From an uncultured Ruminococcus sp. (GTDB lineage Bacteria > Bacillota > Clostridia > Oscillospirales > Ruminococcaceae), in contig CAMWXM010000003.1 in NCBI GenBank assembly GCA_947178195.1, forward strand, positions 1-34,486: a stretch of DNA of 34,486 nucleotides, given 5' to 3'. This document shows, in pieces, positions 282 to 34,442 of this stretch. Position 1 is the first letter of the stretch. Every line of letters begins with the position of its first letter. The notes below the pieces were generated by a model. That model had not been told where the DNA came from, did not search any database, and saw only the letters and a list, made by a program, of their open reading frames with translations. Both the position numbers and the translations under genes were made by a program.

Positions 282-3200
282 TTATACACTCATAATATTA
301 TCTGCCCACAATTCACATTGGTTCATAACTATTGTGACAGCATCATTCATGCCTTCGGGAGGATAACGATGATCTTTCAGTAATTTGCGTATCATCATAC
401 GCATTTTTGCTCTTGCACTATCACGCTTCTGCCAATCTATAGTTCGATTTTTACGGAGTTTATCAGCAAGTTCCTTAGTAATAGCAATAAGCTCCTCGTT
501 TTCATAGAAGTCCTTGATAGCTTGCGGTTTGGTGAGCGCATCGTAGAAAGCAAGCTCCTCAGCCGTCAGACCAAGTTCTTCTCCGGCTTCTTTAGCTTCA
601 CGGATTTGCTTTGCAAGATTAAGCATTTCCTTAATGACTTGCCTATTCGTCAGCATACCATTCACATAGCGGTTCATCGCACTATGCATGATTTCGCTGA
701 ATTTTTCAGATTTTACGAGGTTTGTACGTTTATAAATATGTACTTGCTCGGCAATCAGGCGTTTCAGCAGTTCAACAGCAAGATTCTTCTCTTTCATTCG
801 GGAAATTTCTTCAAGGAATTTCGGATCAAACAGCGAAAAGTCTTGTTTCTTGTCCGAGAAAAGATTAATTACGCCGTCACTCTTTATACTCTGCTTCAGC
901 AGTTCATTGATTTTAGAATTGATTTCGGGAAGTGACAGCTTTTTACTGCCACCCTGATTGAGGATACGCATTAAAAGTACACGTACAGCTTCAAAGAAAG
1001 CAGCTTCGTCACGCTCTCTTTGCACAGCGATAGAAGAACATAGCGAAAGAGCCTGCTTCAGTAACAATGCTTCTTTAGTGTAACTTTCTCGGTCTTTTTC
1101 TCTATTTCTGTCCATAAGAAAGTTTACTGCACCTGTTATCGTTCTGCCTGCTGTAAGCTCATTACCTCCGAAAAATTCGGAATAGTCATATTGGTGAAGA
1201 AGCTCACGGCAGATTTGCAGTTTCTCCTGAAATTTAGGGTATGCGACTTTTGCAATATCGGTGTTGCCATAGTTCTTGCGGTCACGGACGGTATAATCAT
1301 TCATGGCCTGCTTCAAAGCGCTTGCAATTCCTACATAATCAACCACAAGACCGCCCTCTTTATCACGGAATACACGATTTACACGAGCAATAGCCTGCAT
1401 AAGATTATATCCCATCATCGGCTTATAAACATACATAGTCGCAAGGGATGGAACATCAAAGCCTGTCAGCCACATATCAACAACGATAGCAATTTTCATG
1501 GGACTGTCATTATCCTTGAATTTCTTTGCAAGCTCCTCTTTGTGCCGTTTGTTGCCGATGATATTATGCCATTCTTCGGGATCTTTGTTAGAAGCGGTCA
1601 TTACCACGCCGACTTTTTCTTCCCAACCTGGACGAATTTCAAGAATACGCTTGTATATCTTCATAGCGATAGCTCTTGAATAAGCAACGATCATGGCCTT
1701 ACCGGTCAGCAGATTTTCCCTGTAATTCTCATAATGATCGAGAATATCGTCCACAAGAGATTTTATAGTATCATCGTGACCGAGAATAGCTTCCATTTGT
1801 CCAAGTTCACGCTTGCTTCTTTCAATCACATCAGCATCGGCATTCATAGCCATAATGTCATATTCGGTATCGATCAGTTTCAGTGTACTTTCATCAAGTT
1901 TCAGCTTCATTACACGGCTTTCATAGTATACAGGACGAGTTGCACCGTCCTCAACCGCCTGTGTCATATCGTAAATGTCGATATAGTCACCGAATACCTC
2001 TCGAGTGTTTCTATCTTCTCTGGAGATAGGCGTTCCAGTAAAGCCGATATATGTAGCGTTAGGCAGAGTATCACGAATAATACGAGCTGTACCTATCACT
2101 TTTCTTGCTACAAGTTCCCCGTCCTCATTCTTTGTCATTTTGATTTTTTCGGTCAGACCATATTGTCCCCTATGAGCTTCATCAGCCATAACAATGATAT
2201 TTCTTCTTTCAGACAGAGGTTCACCAGATTCCTCAAACTTCTGCATCGTAGTGAAAATGATACCGTTCGCTTTTCGGTCATCAAGGAGCGTTTTCAGATG
2301 TTCACGGCTCTCAGCGTGTACAGGCTCCTGACGGAGGAAGTCCTTGCACTTGGCAAATTGAGCATAGAGCTGATCGTCAAGATCGTTTCTGTCCGTGATA
2401 ACAACAATGGTCGGACTTTCAAGTTCTGATTGGAGCAAGTGTGCATAAAAAACCATAGACAGCGACTTTCCGCTGCCCTGAGTATGCCAGAACACACCGC
2501 CCTTACCATCCGTAATAGTTGCTCTTTTTGTAGATTCCACAGCCTTGCGGACGGCAAAATACTGATGATAGCCTGCCAGTATCTTAAACTGCTGCAAACC
2601 CTCATTTGAAAACAGTATGAAGTTTTTGAGTATGTCAAGCAGACGGTCTTTCTGAAAAATACCCTCAAAGAATGTGTCAAACTGAGCGTACTGCGTGTTT
2701 TCATAGCTTCCGTCATTCGTTTTCCACTCCATATATCTATCTTCACCTGAAGTAATAGTACCTGCTCGGCTTTCGGACAGGTCGCTCATAACGCAGATTG
2801 CATTGTAAATGAACATAGACGGGATAGAGTGCATATAGTTCCGTATCTGAGTATAGGCTTCCGAAGCATCCGTTTCCTCACGGGACGGAGATTTCAATTC
2901 CATAAGCACCACAGGCAAGCCGTTAACAAACAACAGCACGTCAGGACGCTTGTTGCTGTTCTCAATAAAAGTCCACTGATTAGCCACAACAAACGAGTTA
3001 TTGTCCGTGTTTGCATAGTCAACAAGATAGCAGATTGCAGAGCGTTCCTCACCCTTTTCGGTATACCTAACCTCTATGCCGTTTTGAAGATAATCCATAA
3101 AGACGGCGTTTTTCTGCACAAGCTCGCCGTTTTCAAAGTTCATCAATTTATACAGAGCGTCTGATATAGCGTCATCAGGGAGCGTAGGGTTTAGCCTGTA

Positions 3201-3338
3201 AAGAGCGTTCGTGAGCTCGTCCATGTACAGCGGATTTTTATAGTCACGGGAAATGTCAGGTCCGTATGCGTGGGCGTATCCCATTTTCTCAAATAGCTGG
3301 ATTATTGCGGTTTCGTAGTCAGATTCAGTGTAGGGCAT
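282..3338 (-). CDS. hsdR: Type I restriction enzyme R subunit (HsdR)
   Basis: N-terminal nuclease domain, helicase motifs (FWHTQGSGKSLSMVF, MADEAHR, YIGFTGTP), ~1020 aa. ORF opens at 3347, but the SD AGGAG spaces better for the ATG at 3338. Confidence 0.96.
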   Translation of the reverse strand: MPYTESDYETAIIQLFEKMGYAHAYGPDISRDYKNPLYMDELTNALYRLNPTLPDDAISDALYKLMNFENGELVQKNAVFMDYLQNGIEVRYTEKGEERSAICYLVDYANTDNNSFVVANQWTFIENSNKRPDVLLFVNGLPVVLMELKSPSREETDASEAYTQIRNYMHSIPSMFIYNAICVMSDLSESRAGTITSGEDRYMEWKTNDGSYENTQYAQFDTFFEGIFQKDRLLDILKNFILFSNEGLQQFKILAGYHQYFAVRKAVESTKRATITDGKGGVFWHTQGSGKSLSMVFYAHLLQSELESPTIVVITDRNDLDDQLYAQFAKCKDFLRQEPVHAESREHLKTLLDDRKANGIIFTTMQKFEESGEPLSERRNIIVMADEAHRGQYGLTEKIKMTKNEDGELVARKVIGTARIIRDTLPNATYIGFTGTPISREDRNTREVFGDYIDIYDMTQAVEDGATRPVYYESRVMKLKLDESTLKLIDTEYDIMAMNADADVIERSKRELGQMEAILGHDDTIKSLVDDILDHYENYRENLLTGKAMIVAYSRAIAMKIYKRILEIRPGWEEKVGVVMTASNKDPEEWHNIIGNKRHKEELAKKFKDNDSPMKIAIVVDMWLTGFDVPSLATMYVYKPMMGYNLMQAIARVNRVFRDKEGGLVVDYVGIASALKQAMNDYTVRDRKNYGNTDIAKVAYPKFQEKLQICRELLHQYDYSEFFGGNELTAGRTITGAVNFLMDRNREKDRESYTKEALLLKQALSLCSSIAVQRERDEAAFFEAVRVLLMRILNQGGSKKLSLPEINSKINELLKQSIKSDGVINLFSDKKQDFSLFDPKFLEEISRMKEKNLAVELLKRLIAEQVHIYKRTNLVKSEKFSEIMHSAMNRYVNGMLTNRQVIKEMLNLAKQIREAKEAGEELGLTAEELAFYDALTKPQAIKDFYENEELIAITKELADKLRKNRTIDWQKRDSARAKMRMMIRKLLKDHRYPPEGMNDAVTIVMNQCELWADNIMSV

Positions 3339-3343
3339 GGTAT

Positions 3344-3922
3344 TCATCTCCTAAATAAATTTATTAAGGCATTTATTGAAGCAATCAAAGCCGAAATACC
3401 TGCTGTCATAGCTGTAACTGCAACTAAAAAAGCAGTAATTCCTTCAATAATTTTTTTAGTTGCTGAATAATTTTCTTTTGCAGAAGAAGTAAGTAAATGT
3501 GCTTTTATTTTCAATATAATGCAGTATGAATTTCTAAAAAATTCTATAAACAAATAAGAACTATATGAAATTGCAAACAATATCCCTAAAGCTGCCGGTA
3601 TTTCATACAACGTATTTCCTACATTACTATTCACATAGAAATCTAAAGAAAAAAATAGCGCATAAAAGCAACCTGAAAATAGTATAATATGTATAGCAAG
3701 CGTCAATGCTATTTTTTCTTTCTTGTTCATATTGATAAAGGGAAACAAAAAATACGAAAAAGCTATAAAAACACCAGCTATAATCACTCTTAATTCAGAT
3801 TCTGTATCGTACAATTTACTAAATAACATGAGAATTATCCCTGATAAGAACAATCCAGCATCAATACTATAAAATATTTTCTTGTTACAAAATATTTCCT
3901 TTATTTTCTCTTTAAGTTTCAT
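3344..3922 (-). CDS. multi-pass membrane protein of unknown function between hsdS and hsdR
   Basis: About 5 hydrophobic segments in ~192 aa; good SD (AGGAGG) before ATG at 3922; stop overlaps the hsdR start region. Confidence 0.8.
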   Translation of the reverse strand: MKLKEKIKEIFCNKKIFYSIDAGLFLSGIILMLFSKLYDTESELRVIIAGVFIAFSYFLFPFINMNKKEKIALTLAIHIILFSGCFYALFFSLDFYVNSNVGNTLYEIPAALGILFAISYSSYLFIEFFRNSYCIILKIKAHLLTSSAKENYSATKKIIEGITAFLVAVTAMTAGISALIASINALINLFRR

Positions 3923-3939
3923 ATTTCCTCCTAAAAACA

Positions 3940-5082
3940 TTAAATTTCGACCTCTGATACGTCAATTTCACCGTTCATCAGCTTCGGCAGTAGTGTGTCA
4001 CGAAGATTAGATAAGTTTTTAGCTTCAATCCTGTTCGTATATACTGTTTCAAGCATAGGGGCAACGGCTTGATCGAATTGTTCGATATATTTAGTAGATG
4101 GAATACAGATAGGATACATCATTATCTGTTGTTTATCACCTCTTGGCATTTTAGTTCCTTTTGCACCCGCAACCATATAATCAAAAAATTTATCGGAATA
4201 CAGAGCGCAGTAAAGAAAAACTGATAACTCAACTTTATTAGGTACAAAACAAAGTACATCTGTTGAACAACCACAATCAGAAAAGCAGTATACTATTTTC
4301 TTGAAGTAAGGACGAATATTCGATACAAGCACATCGCCTTTTTTGCATGCAGTTGTCTGCTTGATTGCCGGGAGCGTGGTAGCCTGTACAGCACCTTGAC
4401 GATTAGATTGCATATTTTCAGTTGAGTAATAGGTATCAACTGTTAAATTCTCAAGATTAACCTTATCTTTGGAATATCCACATATATCGGAAAGTGTGCC
4501 TGTTTTCCAATCATTAGGCATAACACCATCAAACGGCTCAAAATCCACAAACCAAGACTTAAAAATCGCCTGAGCCTGCTGCTCTAAATTTTCATTTATT
4601 GCTGTGTTGAGGGCGATTTTGTCGTCAAGCATTGAAAGATAACGCGAAATTACTTGTTGTTTTTCAACATCATCAGGAATATCTATTTCTAAACTATTAA
4701 TATCATTTCTGTTTACCGAACCAAATACTGTTCCACTTTCTTTTTGAGTAAGATATGAAACATAGTATTTCATCATATAAAACAAAAAATCTTGATTACC
4801 ATTTTTCATTCTCAAAGAGCAAACGCCACGCCCTAAACACATATCAACAGGAGTAATGTTAAGGTCTCCAACTGGAGCACGTACGCTCATAATAACATCA
4901 CCCGCTTTTGCAGATTTTGTCATAACTGTAGTATATGTATCAAAAGTTGGATATTTGAAACCAAAAGTCCTATTACCTTGTAGAAAAGGATATCCATTCC
5001 CATCAGTGTTATAATATTTAGACTTTGGCGATTGCCCCATTGTAATATCAACCACTTCTGAAAGTTTATATTTCATACCCAA
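3940..5082 (-). CDS. hsdS: Type I restriction-modification specificity subunit (HsdS)
   Basis: Two TRD-like halves, central conserved region NENLEQQAQAIFKSWFVDFEPF, C-terminal NLRDTLLPKLMNGEI. Confidence 0.95.
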   Translation of the reverse strand: MGMKYKLSEVVDITMGQSPKSKYYNTDGNGYPFLQGNRTFGFKYPTFDTYTTVMTKSAKAGDVIMSVRAPVGDLNITPVDMCLGRGVCSLRMKNGNQDFLFYMMKYYVSYLTQKESGTVFGSVNRNDINSLEIDIPDDVEKQQVISRYLSMLDDKIALNTAINENLEQQAQAIFKSWFVDFEPFDGVMPNDWKTGTLSDICGYSKDKVNLENLTVDTYYSTENMQSNRQGAVQATTLPAIKQTTACKKGDVLVSNIRPYFKKIVYCFSDCGCSTDVLCFVPNKVELSVFLYCALYSDKFFDYMVAGAKGTKMPRGDKQQIMMYPICIPSTKYIEQFDQAVAPMLETVYTNRIEAKNLSNLRDTLLPKLMNGEIDVSEVEI

Positions 5083-5091
5083 TCGCCCCTA
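5066..5091. repeat. second copy of hsdM 3'-end/junction sequence, immediately upstream of and into hsdS
   Basis: 23/26 identical to 5754-5779; minus-strand reading GGG GCG ATT GGG TAT GAA ATA TAA = GAIGYEI*, same peptide as the HsdM C terminus. Confidence 0.85.
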
Positions 5092-5487
5092 TTAAAAATT
5101 CAACCATCTGTCATCCATATCCTTTTTTAAAGTTTCAAAAAGGGAAATATGATCTGATTTCAATTTTCTAATAACATATAGTGACTGTTCGTCGCTGTAT
5201 GTATGGGCAAGGATATTTCTTAAATCAAGAAGTTCAAGCCAGCCATCGCAATTATTTACCATTCCGCACTGATAGGCAACCTTTATAATAGCTTTTGGAG
5301 AGCCTATTTTTTCTTCGAATCTGCCATGCTCTTCTAGTACTTCTTTCATAAGCTTCCACGACTGTTCAAAACATATTTCAAAAAGTCCGACAATGCCGGT
5401 CTGCTCTACGATTGTATAGGGTTCTTCAATTTCCAAACCCTCTTTAAGATTTGCAATAGACTTACAAAAATTATCATATTTCTTCAT
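5092..5487 (-). CDS. HEPN-domain protein, HepT-like toxin / nucleotidyltransferase substrate-binding (HI0074) family
   Basis: RX4HXY-type motif R-N-I-L-A-H-T-Y; helical ~130 aa protein; paired and overlapping with an MNT-domain protein. Confidence 0.9.
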   Translation of the reverse strand: MKKYDNFCKSIANLKEGLEIEEPYTIVEQTGIVGLFEICFEQSWKLMKEVLEEHGRFEEKIGSPKAIIKVAYQCGMVNNCDGWLELLDLRNILAHTYSDEQSLYVIRKLKSDHISLFETLKKDMDDRWLNF

Positions 5488-5764
5488 ATAAAATCACTCC
5501 GTCCCTGTTTATTTCGGCTTGCAGCTCTTCGGTAATGCCCCTGTCCAGTTCCACAACATCAAACATCAGCAAAGTCCACGCTTCTTCTTCAACATCGTAA
5601 TAAAAATCCAGTGCATTTCCACCGCTTATTGCAAGGTCAATATCACTTCTTTCAGAATTAGTTCCTCTTGCTCTCGAACCAAAAAGAATTACTTTTTTTA
5701 TACCATTTTTCTTTGCAATTTTAATAATATCTCTTTCAACTCTTTCTGGAAGATTATATTTCAT
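5474..5764 (-). CDS. MNT-domain minimal nucleotidyltransferase, MntA-like antitoxin
   Basis: GSRARGTNSERSDIDLA motif of the NTase superfamily, downstream FDVVELD; overlaps hsdM and hepT ends. Confidence 0.92.
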   Translation of the reverse strand: MKYNLPERVERDIIKIAKKNGIKKVILFGSRARGTNSERSDIDLAISGGNALDFYYDVEEEAWTLLMFDVVELDRGITEELQAEINRDGVILYEEI

Positions 5765-5779
5765 ATCCTATCGCTCCTA
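5754..5779. repeat. first copy of hsdM 3'-end/junction sequence (within hsdM end and mntA start)
   Basis: GGA GCG ATA GGA TAT GAA ATA TAA on minus strand = GAIGYEI*; paired with 5066-5091. Confidence 0.85.
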
Positions 5780-7259
5780 ATTTTTCACGGATTTCATTTT
5801 CAAGCTTATGTGACTTCTTGAACATTTCGGAAAGCTCGGAAGTCAGCCGCTTCATTTTTTCATCAAACGGTTCTCCATCGTCTTCCTGTTCTTCAATGCC
5901 TACATATCGTCCGGGTGTAAGAATATAATCCTGCATTTCAATTTCCTCAATGGTTGCAGCAGCACAGAAACCTTTGACTTCTTCGAGAGACCCATTCTGA
6001 AAATCTCTGAAAGTATCAGCAAGCTTTTGAATGTCATCATCTGTAAAGTCACGGTGCTTGCGGTCGACCATATAACCCATTTTTCGAGCATCAATAAACA
6101 GCGTTATTCCTTTCTGCTTCTTGTTTTTGCTGATAAACCACAGAGTTACGGGGATAGTTACGCTATAAAAAAGCTGAGTTGGCATAGCAACAATCCCCTC
6201 AACAAGATCGGCTTCAATGATATTCTTGCGTATTTCTCCCTCACCGCTTGACTGAGTAGAGAGCGCACCGTTAGCAAGCACAAGACCTATCTTTCCGTTA
6301 GGCGCAAGGTGATGTATCATGTGCTGAATCCACGCATAGTTAGCATTTCCGGCAGGTGGAGTGCCATATTTCCACCGAATATCATCTTTAAGCTTGTCCT
6401 GTCCCCAATTAGAGAGATTAAAAGGCGGATTTGCCATTATAAAATCGGCTTTCAACGATTTGTGTAAATCATTGAAAAACGTATCGGCATGATATGCTCC
6501 AAAGTCAGCATCAATACCACGGATAGCCATATTCATTTTAGCCATTTTCCATGTATCAGCATTGGACTCCTGTCCATAAACGGAGATATTCCCACGATTA
6601 CCGCTATGTGCCTGAATAAATTTTGCACTCTGCACAAACATACCACCTGAACCGCAGCATGGATCGTACACACGGCAGTTCTCAAAAGGATTGAGTATAG
6701 AAACAATTGTCTTTACGATACTTGACGGAGTATAAAACTCACCGCCCTTGACACCCTCATAAGCGGCAAACTGAGCAATACAGTATTCATAAGTACGACC
6801 GAGCAAGTCTTTGTTGTCGCCGGTATCGGTCATGTCCATGTTGGTAAACAAGTCAACAACATCGCCGAGTACACGCTTGTCAAGATCAGGACTTGCATAA
6901 TTTTTAGGAAGAACATTTTTCAGAGTTTTGTTTTCTTCTTCAATCGCTCTCATAGCGTTGTCAATTACTGCACCAATTTCGGGAGTATGAGCCGCCGCAG
7001 ATACAACAGACCAGCGAGATTTCTCAGGAACAAAGAAAATATTATCCATAAGATAAGCATCAGGCTCGTTTTCAAAGCCATCACCGTCAGCCACAAGCTC
7101 ATTATAACGCTTTTCAAATGCACTTGATATGTAGCGTAGGAATATCAATCCTACAATTACTTTTCTGTATTCAGCAGCAGGGATATGTCCCCAAAGGACA
7201 CAGGCAGCGTCCCAAATCTGCTTTTCAAAGCCAATATTAGCATTATTCTTTTCAGCCAT
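5754..7259 (-). CDS. hsdM: Type I restriction-modification DNA methyltransferase (HsdM)
   Basis: N-terminal HsdM domain, DPCCGSGGM and MANPPFN methyltransferase motifs. Confidence 0.97.
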   Translation of the reverse strand: MAEKNNANIGFEKQIWDAACVLWGHIPAAEYRKVIVGLIFLRYISSAFEKRYNELVADGDGFENEPDAYLMDNIFFVPEKSRWSVVSAAAHTPEIGAVIDNAMRAIEEENKTLKNVLPKNYASPDLDKRVLGDVVDLFTNMDMTDTGDNKDLLGRTYEYCIAQFAAYEGVKGGEFYTPSSIVKTIVSILNPFENCRVYDPCCGSGGMFVQSAKFIQAHSGNRGNISVYGQESNADTWKMAKMNMAIRGIDADFGAYHADTFFNDLHKSLKADFIMANPPFNLSNWGQDKLKDDIRWKYGTPPAGNANYAWIQHMIHHLAPNGKIGLVLANGALSTQSSGEGEIRKNIIEADLVEGIVAMPTQLFYSVTIPVTLWFISKNKKQKGITLFIDARKMGYMVDRKHRDFTDDDIQKLADTFRDFQNGSLEEVKGFCAAATIEEIEMQDYILTPGRYVGIEEQEDDGEPFDEKMKRLTSELSEMFKKSHKLENEIREKLGAIGYEI

Positions 7260-18961: not shown

Positions 18962-20437
18962 ATGAGAAAAAACGGTATACTTATGCACATTTCCAGCCTT
19001 CCGTCAGAATACGGTATAGGAAAAATGGGAAGAGCCGCTTATGACTTTGTTGATTTTCTTGCAGCATCGGGAGTTAAATGCTGGCAGATACTGCCGCTGT
19101 CTCCCACAAGCTATGGCGATTCGCCCTATCAGTCTTTTTCCGTATATGCCGGAAATCCGTATTTCGTTGATTTTGATACGTTAAAACGTGAGGGACTTAT
19201 AAAAAAATCTGATTATGAGGATATAAAATGGCAGGATAATTCTCGTAGGGTGAATTACAGTCTTATATATAACGGCTGCTTCAAGGTTTTAAGGCAGGCT
19301 TATAAAACCTATAAACGTGACGTTTCAAAAAGATATAAAGAATTTAAAGTCGAAAATAAACAATGGCTTGACGACTATGCTTTGTTTATGGCTTTGAAAT
19401 TCAAAAACAACGGCAAGGCATGGTATGAATGGGACAAAAAGTTTGCTATGAGAGATAAAAACGCCCTTCTGAAAGCTTCGGAAGAGCTGGAAAAGGATAT
19501 AGAATTTTTTAAATTCATTCAGTATAAATTTTTCAGCCAATGGAAAAATCTGAAAAAATATACTAATGACAAGGGAATTGAAATTATTGGAGATATGCCT
19601 ATTTATGTTTCCTATGACAGCGTTGAGGCGTGGGCATACCCTGAGCTTTTCTGCTTTGACAAGGATAAAAAGCCCAAAGACGTTGCCGGATGTCCGCCTG
19701 ACGATTTTTCGAAAACCGGTCAGTTGTGGGGGAATCCGCTTTACGACTGGGAATACCACAAAGAAACCAACTATAAATGGTGGGTACAGCGGCTTAAATT
19801 TTCCTCTGAAATTTATGATATTGTAAGAATAGACCATTTCCGTGGCTTTGAAAGCTATTATACTATCCCATATGGTAACAAAACTGCTGAAAAAGGCGAA
19901 TGGAGAAAGGGTCCTGGAGCGGCTCTGTTTAAGGAAGCTGAAAGAAAATTGGGTAAGCTTAACATTATTGCCGAGGATCTGGGATTTATAACCTCTGATG
20001 TACGTGAAATGCTGGCGGCTGTGGGGTATCCGGGTATGAAGGTCACTCAGTTTGCTTTCGGCGAGGGCGGAAAAAACGAGCACCTGCCCCATAATTATGA
20101 CAATTCAAACTGTGTGGCATATACGGGAACTCATGATAATGAAACATTAAAGGGCTGGGTGGCATCTCAGTCATCCGAAACTCTTAAATTCTGCATGGCA
20201 TACCTTAATGTAAGCAAGAAAAAGGATATTCCTAAGGGAATTATAAGGGAAACTTGGGGAAGTGTTGCGCAGATCGCAGTAGCACAGATGCAGGATTTCC
20301 TTAATTCTGATGCAACGGCAAGAATGAATATCCCTTCAACTCTGGGCACTAACTGGCAGTTCAGAACCAAATCCGATGACTTTACGGAAAAACTTTCAAA
20401 ACGCATTCTTAAAATCAATAAAATGTATAATAGATAA
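18962..20437 (+). CDS. malQ: 4-alpha-glucanotransferase
   Basis: GILMHISSLPSEYGIG, YGDSPYQSFSVYAGNPYF, RIDHFRGFESYYTIP, AEDLGFIT, YTGTHDNETLKGW. Confidence 0.97.
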   Translation: MRKNGILMHISSLPSEYGIGKMGRAAYDFVDFLAASGVKCWQILPLSPTSYGDSPYQSFSVYAGNPYFVDFDTLKREGLIKKSDYEDIKWQDNSRRVNYSLIYNGCFKVLRQAYKTYKRDVSKRYKEFKVENKQWLDDYALFMALKFKNNGKAWYEWDKKFAMRDKNALLKASEELEKDIEFFKFIQYKFFSQWKNLKKYTNDKGIEIIGDMPIYVSYDSVEAWAYPELFCFDKDKKPKDVAGCPPDDFSKTGQLWGNPLYDWEYHKETNYKWWVQRLKFSSEIYDIVRIDHFRGFESYYTIPYGNKTAEKGEWRKGPGAALFKEAERKLGKLNIIAEDLGFITSDVREMLAAVGYPGMKVTQFAFGEGGKNEHLPHNYDNSNCVAYTGTHDNETLKGWVASQSSETLKFCMAYLNVSKKKDIPKGIIRETWGSVAQIAVAQMQDFLNSDATARMNIPSTLGTNWQFRTKSDDFTEKLSKRILKINKMYNR

Positions 20438-20451
20438 AAAGGAGAATTGAT

Positions 20452-22788
20452 ATGGAAAATTATAAGGAAAATCTCAGGGCAGCTTTGAAGGGCTGCAATA
20501 CTCCTCAGGAGATTCATACGGCTGTGGGAAACGCTGTTATGAAGTATGCCGCTGAAAACTGGAGCAAGTCAAAAAATGCCCACAAAAACAGCAGACGTGC
20601 ATGCTATTTTTCAATGGAATTTTTAGTGGGCAGAGCGGTTTATAATAATTTATTATGCCTGGGCATTTACGATGAGACTGAAAAGGTCTTAAACGAAATG
20701 GGTAAAAGTCTTTCTGAGCTTGAGGAAATCGAGGACGCTGCTCTCGGCAACGGCGGTCTTGGAAGGCTTGCAGCTTGTTTCCTTGACAGTGCGGCTTCCC
20801 TCGATCTTCCGCTGGACGGCTATGGCATAAGATATAAATATGGTCTTTTCAAGCAGGGGATCGAAAACGGCTTTCAGACGGAAGCTGCTGACGACTGGAC
20901 AAAATTCGGCGATCCATGGTCAGTAAGAGTTGACAGCGAGGCTGTTGAGGTAAAATATAACGGTCAGACGGTAAAAGCCGTGCCTTATGATATGCCCATA
21001 TTCGGCTGTAAAACCAATCATGTCAGCACTCTCAGACTCTGGCAGGCTGAAGCAGTAAATGAATTTAATTTTGACCTTTTCAATCAGCAGAAGTATATGG
21101 AGGCAGCGGCAGAAAAAATTTATGCCGAGGATATATCCAAGGTTTTATATCCTAACGATGACGGAAGAGAAGGTAAAAAGCTCCGTTTAAAGCAGCAGTA
21201 TTTCTTCTGCAGCGCATCGCTTCAGGATATTATAAAAAAACATATAGACCGGTTTGGCGGAGTAGAAAATATTTCCGACAGCATTACTATCCAGTTAAAC
21301 GATACTCATCCGGTAATCTCGATACCTGAATTTATTAGACTTATGCGTCTTAACGGAGTAAGCTTTGATAAGGCATTTGCCCTTGCAAAAAAAGTATTCA
21401 ATTACACAAACCATACTGTAATGCCGGAAGCACTGGAAAAATGGGATTGCTCTCTTGTGGAAGAGCTTCTGCCTGAAATTTATACTATTATTTTGCAGAT
21501 AAACGAACAGCTTATTGCTGAAATGTATTCCAAGGGTAAAAAATCTGAGGAAATCGAAAAAATCAAAATTGTCAGAAACGGTCTTGTAAATATGGCTGAT
21601 ATGGCTGTTTACTGCTCTTCATATGTAAACGGCGTTGCTGAAATTCATACGGAGATATTAAAGGATACTGTTCTTGCGGATTGGTATAAGCTGTATCCTG
21701 AAAGATTCCAGAATAAAACAAATGGTATTACTCAAAGACGCTGGCTTGCCCTTTGTAATCCTGAGCTTTCTGCTCTTATTACCGAATTGCTGGGCAATGA
21801 AAAGTGGATGACAAATTTAGATGAGCTGAAGAAAATTTCCGGCTATTCCGAAGACGAGGAAATGGTGAAAAAATTCCTTGATATTAAAAAAGCAAATAAG
21901 AAAAAGCTTGCGGACTATATCTGTAAAGCCGAGGGTATTACTATCGACCCTAATTCGATTTTCGATATTCAGATAAAGAGACTGCACGAATATAAGCGCC
22001 AGCTTCTTAATGCTTTTTCGATACTTTATATTTATTTCGGCATCAAATCCGGCGAAATTATAAATTTAAACCCTGTTACTTTTATTTTTGGCGCAAAGTC
22101 TGCCCCTGGTTATCGCAGAGCAAAAGCAATCATTAAATTTATAAACGAGATTGCAAAGCTTGTTGAAAACGATGAAGAGGTTAGCAGATACGTAAAAGTA
22201 GTGTTTGTTTCAAATTATAACGTTTCCTATGCAGAAAAGCTTATTCCGGCTGCTGATGTTTCTGAGCAGATCTCAACCGCCGGAACAGAAGCTTCAGGAA
22301 CAGGCAATATGAAGCTTATGTTAAACGGTGCGGTAACTCTTGGAACATACGACGGAGCAAATATCGAAATAGTTCAGGAAGCAGGTGAGGAAAATAATTA
22401 TATTTTCGGCGCAAGAGTTGAAGAGCTTAAAGAAATTATGCCTGAATATAACAGCCGTAAAATTCTTTCTGAAAATCCTAAAATAAGACAGGTGGTTCAG
22501 ACACTTATTGATGGTACTGTTTCCGATGGCGGCTCTGGAGATTTCAGAGAGCTTTATTATTCACTGACAGACGGAGCTTCATGGCATTCACCGGATAATT
22601 ATTACTTATTGGGCGATTTGGAAAGCTATATTGACGTAAAGCTTAAATGTATAGGAGATTTCGGCAATAACAAGCTTATAGGAAAGAAAATGTGGCTTAA
22701 TATGTGCAATGCGGGTAAATTCAGCTCCGATAGAACTATCAGGGATTATGCTGAAAATATCTGGCATATCGGTAAGGCGGAGATTTAA
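20452..22788 (+). CDS. glgP: glycogen/maltodextrin phosphorylase
   Basis: CYFSMEFLVGR, LGNGGLGRLAACFLDS, QLNDTHPVISIPE, KNGITQRRWL-like TNGITQRRWL, QIKRLHEYKRQLLN, EQISTAGTEASGTGNMK. Confidence 0.97.
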   Translation: MENYKENLRAALKGCNTPQEIHTAVGNAVMKYAAENWSKSKNAHKNSRRACYFSMEFLVGRAVYNNLLCLGIYDETEKVLNEMGKSLSELEEIEDAALGNGGLGRLAACFLDSAASLDLPLDGYGIRYKYGLFKQGIENGFQTEAADDWTKFGDPWSVRVDSEAVEVKYNGQTVKAVPYDMPIFGCKTNHVSTLRLWQAEAVNEFNFDLFNQQKYMEAAAEKIYAEDISKVLYPNDDGREGKKLRLKQQYFFCSASLQDIIKKHIDRFGGVENISDSITIQLNDTHPVISIPEFIRLMRLNGVSFDKAFALAKKVFNYTNHTVMPEALEKWDCSLVEELLPEIYTIILQINEQLIAEMYSKGKKSEEIEKIKIVRNGLVNMADMAVYCSSYVNGVAEIHTEILKDTVLADWYKLYPERFQNKTNGITQRRWLALCNPELSALITELLGNEKWMTNLDELKKISGYSEDEEMVKKFLDIKKANKKKLADYICKAEGITIDPNSIFDIQIKRLHEYKRQLLNAFSILYIYFGIKSGEIINLNPVTFIFGAKSAPGYRRAKAIIKFINEIAKLVENDEEVSRYVKVVFVSNYNVSYAEKLIPAADVSEQISTAGTEASGTGNMKLMLNGAVTLGTYDGANIEIVQEAGEENNYIFGARVEELKEIMPEYNSRKILSENPKIRQVVQTLIDGTVSDGGSGDFRELYYSLTDGASWHSPDNYYLLGDLESYIDVKLKCIGDFGNNKLIGKKMWLNMCNAGKFSSDRTIRDYAENIWHIGKAEI

Positions 22789-32413: not shown

Positions 32414-34057
32414 TTATGCAGTATTATTTTTGATTTTAAGGGCATATTTTTCTATTGCTTTAGCTGCGCCGTCGTCCTCACAGCAGTCGGTCACATGCAG
32501 AGCATGAGCCTTGACGGTTTTGGAAGCATTGCCCATAGCCACGGAAATGCCTGCGGATTTCAGCATGGAAATATCGTTATTACTATCGCCGATAGCCATG
32601 ACCTCCGACATATCTGCCTTTATCATATTGCTTAAATACTGAACTCCCTGACCCTTGCAGCAGGTATTTGCGGTTATTTCCAGGTTATAATCCATAGCGT
32701 AGGCGATTCTTGGCGGCGGAACAAGATGGCTTATTCTGCATATAGCCTCTTTGCGTTCCCTTTTGCTTGCAAAAAACAAATTGATTTTTTCAAGACTCGG
32801 ATTAGTATCGTTATAATATTTGCGTATATTATTTTTAAGAGTTCTTGAATTTTTCAGCACCTTGTCAAATCCGTCGGTAACATTATAATAGTCCAGCTTC
32901 TGCATATCCGACGCCTGTATATAACCCTTGCCGTCGATATAAAGGTCGATCATGCATTGATAGCTGTTCAGGATATCCAGTACCTTTTCAGCCGTTTCAG
33001 GCTCAAGAGGATTTCTGTATATTACAGTTCCTTCACTATCTACGATAGACGAACCGTTGGAGGTTATAAAGTACATTATTCCCTTTATATTTTTTACTGC
33101 ATCAGGTATTTCGTCCATCATTCTGCCTGTGCATACCGCAACGGTTATCCCCGAAGCGGCAGCCTTATTGATAACGTCGATGGATCTTTGTGAAATATTT
33201 TCAGCATGGCTTATAATAGTACCGTCAAGATCCACTGCAATAAGCTTGATTTTTTTAACAGGCTTTACGAGCAGCCTTTTACGGAAATTTTTCTTAACGG
33301 TTTTTTTCATACGTGAATATCTGGACTGTAATTTTTTCAGACTGTCAACGGTATCGTTATCCGGCTCGATAATAATTTCGCCGGTAAAGCCGTTTACAGC
33401 AGCAAATTTTCCGTTCATACTGCTATCCAGTTCTTTTACATTGAATACAGAGGGGATTTCAAGATTTCTTGCAAGGCAGGCGGCGTGAGATTTTCTCATA
33501 CCGTTTATTGCGATAACAGCATTTGCGGAAGCAAGCCGCATAGCTATAATATAGCTGGGAACATAAGATTCGCTTACAATAATTTTATTCGTTTTATCTG
33601 GAATTTTAAAAACAGCCTTTTTAAGGGTAAGAAATCTTATAATGTGCTCGGAGATGTCTATAACGTCCATGGATTTCGCACGGCTCATCTCATCCTCCAT
33701 ACTGAGGAACAGAGATGAAAATTCTATAGAAACGACACGAACCGCATATTCGGCACAGACATTTTTTTCTCTTATCATTTCTGTGATAGAATTAATATAA
33801 TCGTTATCCTGCAGCATCATTTGCTGAAAGCTGAAAATCTGTGCATTTTCTTCTCCTGCTCTGTGCAGAGTTTTTTCATAAAGTGTTTGAAGTAAATTAA
33901 GAGTATCAGCGCTTGCTTTAAAAAAACGATTGATTTCATATTCGGTGTCTTCTGCCGCCTGCTTTTCAACAACAGAAATGTTTTTTGTAAAGTCACGAAC
34001 ATGAATATATCCGAAAGCAATCCCCTTGCTGACGCTCGTTCCTTTTATAATTTTCAT
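32414..34057 (-). CDS. fusion protein: PTS enzyme I N-terminal (phosphohistidine) region plus Cof-type HAD phosphatase
   Basis: Residues ~1-235 EI-like (IIKGTSVSKGIAFGYIHV, SHAACLARNLEIPSVF); residues ~270-547 HAD (IAVDLDGTI, TGRMMDEI, GDSNNDISML); PEP-binding barrel absent. Confidence 0.9.
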   Translation of the reverse strand: MKIIKGTSVSKGIAFGYIHVRDFTKNISVVEKQAAEDTEYEINRFFKASADTLNLLQTLYEKTLHRAGEENAQIFSFQQMMLQDNDYINSITEMIREKNVCAEYAVRVVSIEFSSLFLSMEDEMSRAKSMDVIDISEHIIRFLTLKKAVFKIPDKTNKIIVSESYVPSYIIAMRLASANAVIAINGMRKSHAACLARNLEIPSVFNVKELDSSMNGKFAAVNGFTGEIIIEPDNDTVDSLKKLQSRYSRMKKTVKKNFRKRLLVKPVKKIKLIAVDLDGTIISHAENISQRSIDVINKAAASGITVAVCTGRMMDEIPDAVKNIKGIMYFITSNGSSIVDSEGTVIYRNPLEPETAEKVLDILNSYQCMIDLYIDGKGYIQASDMQKLDYYNVTDGFDKVLKNSRTLKNNIRKYYNDTNPSLEKINLFFASKRERKEAICRISHLVPPPRIAYAMDYNLEITANTCCKGQGVQYLSNMIKADMSEVMAIGDSNNDISMLKSAGISVAMGNASKTVKAHALHVTDCCEDDGAAKAIEKYALKIKNNTA

Positions 34058-34442
34058 TATGTCAGACGCCTTTCATAGAACAAGTTAGTAACAGGTTTGT
34101 GCAACAATAAATGTCGTAATGCTGAGGCATACTGCAAAAAGCATGGCATAATCATGATTTATGCAATCTGACGAAAACCGACTGTACATTTTCAGCACGC
34201 TCATTATTCGTCACTGCCTTATACTTATATTATATCTCATTTTTTGTGAAAATTCAATAATTTTTTATAAAATATATTAAATTTCTTGTTTTAACCAAAT
34301 ATGCGCATGCAAAAAAATATTACTTCGTGAACGGCTGCTGATCTGCTTTCGACAGAAGGTTCTGAAACACGAGTTTCAAAAGCACTTCAAACAGTTTTTT
34401 TATATCTTATTTGTATAAATTTGAGAAAATTGAAAAAAAATA

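Follow-up and report, generated by a model that had tools for sequence, protein, structure and literature searches.

We report here a gene, near one end of a 34,486-nucleotide contig (C3) of an uncultured Ruminococcus sp. genome, in which the N-terminal half of enzyme I (EI) of the phosphotransferase system (PTS), hereafter EIN, is fused in frame to a Cof-type HAD phosphatase. The window analysed is this whole contig, and the genome (G000) is a 3.2 Mb assembly in 446 contigs which is 97% complete. The gene is a remodelled ptsI. The reading we favour, which we put at a little under an even chance and which draws on sequence comparison, is that HPr and His191 of this remodelled enzyme exchange phosphate and that the fused phosphatase is probably modulated by the state of the PTS. 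If the proposed function is true, a PTS phosphate-exchange domain has been wired to a catabolite phosphatase, and gut Ruminococcus, in which PTS use is poorly known, would offer a testable coupling in cis between the state of sugar uptake and the removal of sugar phosphates.

The fusion is encoded by a single minus-strand open-reading frame with an ATG start (32414–34057; stop codon 32414–32416; 547 codons, 547 aa), and the plus-strand frame over the same interval is riddled with stops. Residues 1–232 (33362–34057, minus strand, as for all features of the gene) form the EIN part, with a helical subdomain of the HPr-binding type (PF05524, PEP-utilisers_N, residues 5–126, E 1.5e-26) and a swivelling phosphohistidine subdomain (PF00391, PEP-utilizers mobile domain, residues 156–226, E 5.2e-11), and Foldseek also identifies this part as EIN. 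The Cof-type HAD (HAD-IIB) domain occupies residues 270–540 (32438–33250), is complete in Pfam (Hydrolase_3/Cof, residues 273–535, E 5.6e-56), scores 174.8 bits against a cut-off of 137 for the Cof subfamily TIGR00099 in NCBIfam, and contains all four HAD motifs: DLDGT (motif I, residues 276–280, 33218–33232), TSN (motif II, 33056–33064), Lys468 (motif III, 32654–32656) and GDSNND (motif IV, residues 490–495, 32573–32590). These four motifs are conserved across all three of the fusions described below. The PEP-binding and dimerisation barrel with the catalytic Cys (PEP-utilizers_C, PF02896) was not found by Pfam in the fusion protein; it does occur in the canonical EI of the same genome and in the EI of a related genome (G007). 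Consistent with this, the PTS_I_fam profile TIGR01417 matches at 128.9 bits, below its cut-off of 341.7, and the match stops at residue 274, so that the protein has the helical and swivel domains of EI with the catalytic His and lacks the C-terminal barrel. Searches with phmmer and Foldseek independently matched solved EIN structures (5woy, 1zym) to residues 4–252 and Cof HADs (1nrw, 1rkq, 4dwo) to residues 270–541, and Foldseek on the HAD half also gave BT4131, YidA and YbiV, which suggests a predicted phosphatase acting on sugar or other small-molecule phosphates.

An initial annotation of this DNA, made from the letters alone, had proposed an EI N-terminal domain without its barrel and, in place of the barrel, a HAD domain with intact DLDGT and GDSNND motifs, and had called for a domain search of the boundaries. 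Pfam, NCBIfam, phmmer and Foldseek bear out the EIN boundaries and the missing barrel, both HAD motifs are in place, and the Pfam search confirms EIN at residues 5–226 and HAD at residues 273–535. At the junction (residues 233–268, 33254–33361), delimited by a helix in the AF2 model and by comparison with the G007 EI, the EI linker helix is kept and runs into the start of the HAD, whilst the barrel (about 290 aa in the G007 EI) is gone. The AF2 model (mean pLDDT 91.7) connects the two halves by a long linker helix at residues 234–264, and its pTM of 0.68 means that it does not fix their relative orientation.

The initial annotation had also raised the possibility that two genes were joined by a frameshift or an assembly error. 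In favour of such an artefact, all of the genomes are metagenome-assembled (MAGs) and the copy in one of them (G009, same fusion, 54–57% identity) has a frameshift within EIN (L041, around 7140–7150); however, the in-frame fusion recurs at the same locus, intact and full-length, in a MAG of another species (G010, 60% identity), and the frameshift in G009 is well away from the junction, in a contig whose name gives a coverage of 2.19 (about 2.2×), and is likely a sequencing error. An artefactual join is thus so improbable that we treat it as ruled out.

We searched eleven Ruminococcus genomes for the locus and found it in three forms. The fusion is present in three of the eleven species (G000, G009 and G010); two named orthologues are the Ruminococcus MAGs RUG14211 and SIG547, whose names we take to mark them as rumen genomes. 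Beside the atp operon of G007 lies a full-length EI gene (554 aa, barrel present), the only EI found in that genome, the last 11 nt of which (ATGAGCATTAA) overlap the start of a separate 272-aa HAD gene. A third group of species (G008, G001, G003 and G006) has, at the atp locus, a stand-alone EIN (about 230 aa) that no HAD adjoins (L037:6592–7284, L038:6773–7465, L039:2418–3110 and L040:7971–8663), and no close HAD orthologue is left in these four genomes. In the relatives the next genes upstream are those of the divergent atp operon; the window contig ends 429 bp upstream of the fusion gene with the atp operon off contig, and we infer that the G000 fusion sits at the atp locus from its orthology with G009 and G010. 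Its convergent downstream neighbours are a polysaccharide deacetylase gene and then SpoIIP.

The fusions and the EIN-only proteins cluster with the G007 EI in a 49-row EIN-domain tree, which is to be read with a warning about long branches, the branches being long after barrel loss. Once the longest unrelated rows are taken out, all seven barrel-less proteins fall into a single clade (96/92), which the G007 EI joins in a clade of eight rows (82/84); dropping either barrel-less group still leaves the G007 EI as the nearest row outside the other. Synteny provides an independent argument for the orthology of the atp-linked EI, fusion and EIN-only genes. In its ancestral-type form the locus has an EI gene with an overlapping Cof-HAD gene, divergent from the atp operon, and in a sub-lineage the barrel-coding stretch is lost, which leaves either the in-frame fusion or EIN alone. 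The overlapping genes of G007 argue for a functional tie between EI and HAD which predates the fusion, as the only EI found in that genome is co-encoded with the HAD through the 11-nt overlap. With full EI plus HAD, the fusion, and EIN alone all at one locus, nature has in effect set up a small experiment on what an EI N-domain does when free of its barrel.

The residue assigned as the catalytic His by the initial annotation, His191 (codon CAC, 33485–33487), lies in the motif RKSHAACLAR (residues 188–197, 33467–33496) and indeed aligns with His189 of E. coli PtsI; this His is kept in all seven barrel-less proteins and in 76 of 76 full EIs, and Ser190 and Arg197 are likewise conserved in the barrel-less seven. 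With the His kept, the barrel lost and the domain under selection, these proteins belong to a functional class of barrel-less EIN which has no curated family. They differ from full-length EIs at other positions: Ile170 (33548–33550) aligns with Thr168 of E. coli EI, a position where each of the seven barrel-less proteins has Ile, Val or Met and 76/76 full clostridial and coriobacterial EIs have Thr, and the loop after it is also lost. The Thr168 hydroxyl of E. coli EI hydrogen-bonds the unphosphorylated His189 (PMC8295985). Val stands at this position in the truncated EI domains of E. coli and Klebsiella DhaM, and also in a full-length Vibrio casei DhaM-type protein (799 aa), which keeps the barrel, and in an Acinetobacter FruB; the latter two rule out loss of Thr168 as a strict mark of barrel loss. 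Since DhaM and some full-length multiphosphoryl-transfer proteins have Val here, the Thr168 change is no sign of inactivity; it is compatible with phosphotransfer and does not exclude phosphorylation. Each barrel-less copy has lost about 12–16 of the 51 positions that at least 90% of full EIs share. Position 78 is Gln in all seven (H78Q), His in G007 and at least 90% His in the column of 86 full EIs, and by this comparison Gln78 is a shared derived state of the barrel-less proteins. No significant excess of preserved positions was seen in the helical HPr-binding subdomain relative to the swivel subdomain (Fisher p 0.2–1.0).

Selection at the locus bears on whether EIN does anything at all. The EIN-only genes are under strong purifying selection (dN/dS 0.03–0.14, Nei-Gojobori), and in all four species perfect TTGACA-17-TATAAT hexamers lie 36–40 bp upstream of the start codon; low dN/dS and perfect promoters together indicate that EIN is no neutral remnant. 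In the fusions, pN/pS between G000 and G010 is 0.38 for EIN and 0.35 for HAD, ratios which are rough as synonymous sites are near saturation and which are similar for the two halves, both of which evolve under purifying selection. One alternative holds that the EIN half has decayed to a scaffold or oligomerisation module without phosphotransfer, with the HAD reaction alone mattering. The loss of Thr168, of the loop after it and of other near-invariant EI positions would fit this, as would the long branches following barrel loss, but the active-motif His, Ser and Arg are kept in every one of the seven, the dN/dS of the EIN-only genes is far below 1, EIN is retained even where the HAD is lost, and the Val of DhaM and of full-length multiphosphoryl-transfer EIs removes Thr168 as a mark of decay. 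We consider a degenerate EIN unlikely.

The initial annotation had further suggested that EIN gates the phosphatase. This is not supported so far: four sister species keep EIN without HAD under strong purifying selection, so EIN needs a role that is independent of the HAD, and the case that it exists solely for gating is weakened accordingly. EIN may bind HPr and work by itself as a phosphate acceptor or competitor, thereby buffering or braking the PTS, whilst the HAD is an ungated, constitutive housekeeping phosphatase. The EIN-only orthologues, with their own promoters, their constraint and no close HAD orthologue remaining in their genomes, speak for such a division of labour. It is harder to reconcile with the overlap of the EI and HAD genes already seen in the ancestral-type arrangement, or with the persistence of an in-frame fusion, constrained in both halves, across three divergent species, both of which suggest that the tether is important; moreover, aromatic and Met residues on the HPr face are altered in the EIN-only proteins (F113H, F117L, M120T) and retained in the fusions. 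We regard an independently acting EIN as a serious minority possibility, behind the remodelled, phosphate-exchanging and phosphatase-coupled enzyme set out at the start.

Under this preferred reading, the fusion protein, having no barrel, would be unable to take phosphate from PEP, and a canonical EI encoded elsewhere in the genome would charge HPr, which would then exchange phosphate with His191. G000 does encode an HPr and, at the edge of a contig (C194), a canonical EI distinct from the fusion. The general statement made by the initial annotation, that an EI N-domain without a barrel can be charged through HPr, has support in the literature: an isolated EIN (the tEIN construct) is phosphorylated with catalytic EI, HPr and PEP (PMC8295985), and E. 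coli DhaM has a truncated EI domain (PMC13099321). By analogy with these two precedents, phosphate exchange between HPr and His191 is plausible. The HAD half is predicted to dephosphorylate a sugar phosphate or similar metabolite, and the fusion would keep this phosphatase tethered to, and probably modulated by, the phosphorylation state of HPr and the PTS; the HAD, for which activity is a prediction, would thus probably follow the state of sugar uptake. Least certain in this scheme is how strongly, and in which direction, the HAD is controlled.

A different coupling is conceivable, in which His191 receives phosphate from HPr and the HAD removes it by hydrolysis, or acts on phospho-HPr directly, so that the protein drains phosphohistidine and lowers PTS phosphorylation in the manner of SixA. 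A phosphate acceptor is here physically fused to a phosphatase, and SixA, which dephosphorylates a PTS carrier protein (NPr in E. coli), gives a precedent (PMC7948535). Against this, the nearest HAD relatives are capped sugar-phosphate phosphatases of the Cof/HAD-IIB type, whose cap suits small molecules, and the EIN-only orthologues have no phosphatase; such a drain is possible, but the capped Cof type of the HAD makes it less likely, and overall it seems to us quite improbable.

The 97% complete G000 assembly yielded no PF02378-family EIIC, so that the PTS of this organism may be mainly regulatory, or the contig with the EIIC is missing. More broadly, and as a speculation which we hold with less assurance than the preferred reading of the fusion, the genus could have a regulatory PTS branch of its own. 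The barrel-less EI domains of this branch, free or HAD-fused, would trade phosphate with HPr, either storing it reversibly as a sink or sensing it so as to switch, or supply, a phosphatase. If such a branch exists, it would link PTS flux directly to sugar-phosphate removal or to PTS dephosphorylation.

The fusion resembles several known systems and is identical to none of them. With PtsI (TIGR01417) it shares both N-terminal subdomains, the position of the catalytic His, the linker helix and, by synteny and tree, an atp-linked ptsI origin; it differs in having a HAD instead of the PF02896 barrel and in its altered Thr168 and other near-invariant positions. E. coli DhaM likewise has a barrel-less EIN with the conserved His and with Val for Thr168 (here Ile, Val or Met), but it supplies a kinase and has EIIA-Man and HPr domains within the same chain, whereas the fusion has a C-terminal phosphatase, no EIIA-Man or HPr domain in Pfam, and a score of 98.3 against a cut-off of 520 bits for NF008478. 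The HAD half shares the entire fold, and each of the four catalytic motifs, with the Cof-type HAD-IIB sugar-phosphate phosphatases (YidA, YwpJ/1nrw, BT4131), whose relatives seen here, the fusion excepted, are free-standing genes. In lactococcal inducer expulsion, HPr(Ser-P) acts on a separate small sugar-phosphate phosphatase; the idea of such a phosphatase under PTS/HPr control is common to both, whereas in the fusion a domain predicted to exchange His-phosphate is joined in cis. Barrel-less EI domains are already known from DhaM, and what is new is the HAD phosphatase partner, in three of the eleven species of one genus.

A survey of this architecture, which the initial annotation had recommended, revealed no other EIN-HAD fusion in about 1,150 sampled genomes (among them 295 from the order, 398 from the family and 399 from the phylum, some, such as G000, in more than one set), so that among the genomes sampled the fusion is restricted to three Ruminococcus species. 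The 80 best loci of a GTDB contig scan likewise held no further fusion, all other EIN matches being full-length EIs; these searches relied either on pattern matching or on an E-value limit near 1e-46 to 1e-48, which a very divergent fusion could escape. No EI was seen adjoining the nearest free-standing HADs in other genera, and a literature search found no described EI-HAD fusion.

Upstream of the fusion gene, a candidate promoter TTGAAT-17-TATAAT (34229–34257, minus strand), identified by consensus match, lies about 170 bp from the start codon. No cre sites were found upstream of the gene and no riboswitch or other RNA element near it, the only RNA element in the window being a bacterial small SRP RNA (RF00169, 25821–25919) located elsewhere, directly upstream of dnaX and recR. 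The opposite end of the contig carries a type I restriction-modification locus (282–7259) with hsdR (282–3347, minus strand), hsdM (5754–7259, minus strand) and smaller open-reading frames between them. A 4-alpha-glucanotransferase gene (GH77) followed by a glycogen phosphorylase gene lies at 18962–22788 on the plus strand; in G009 (L192, 4284–11042) what are seemingly the same two glucan enzymes flank a PTS EIIC gene and another gene.
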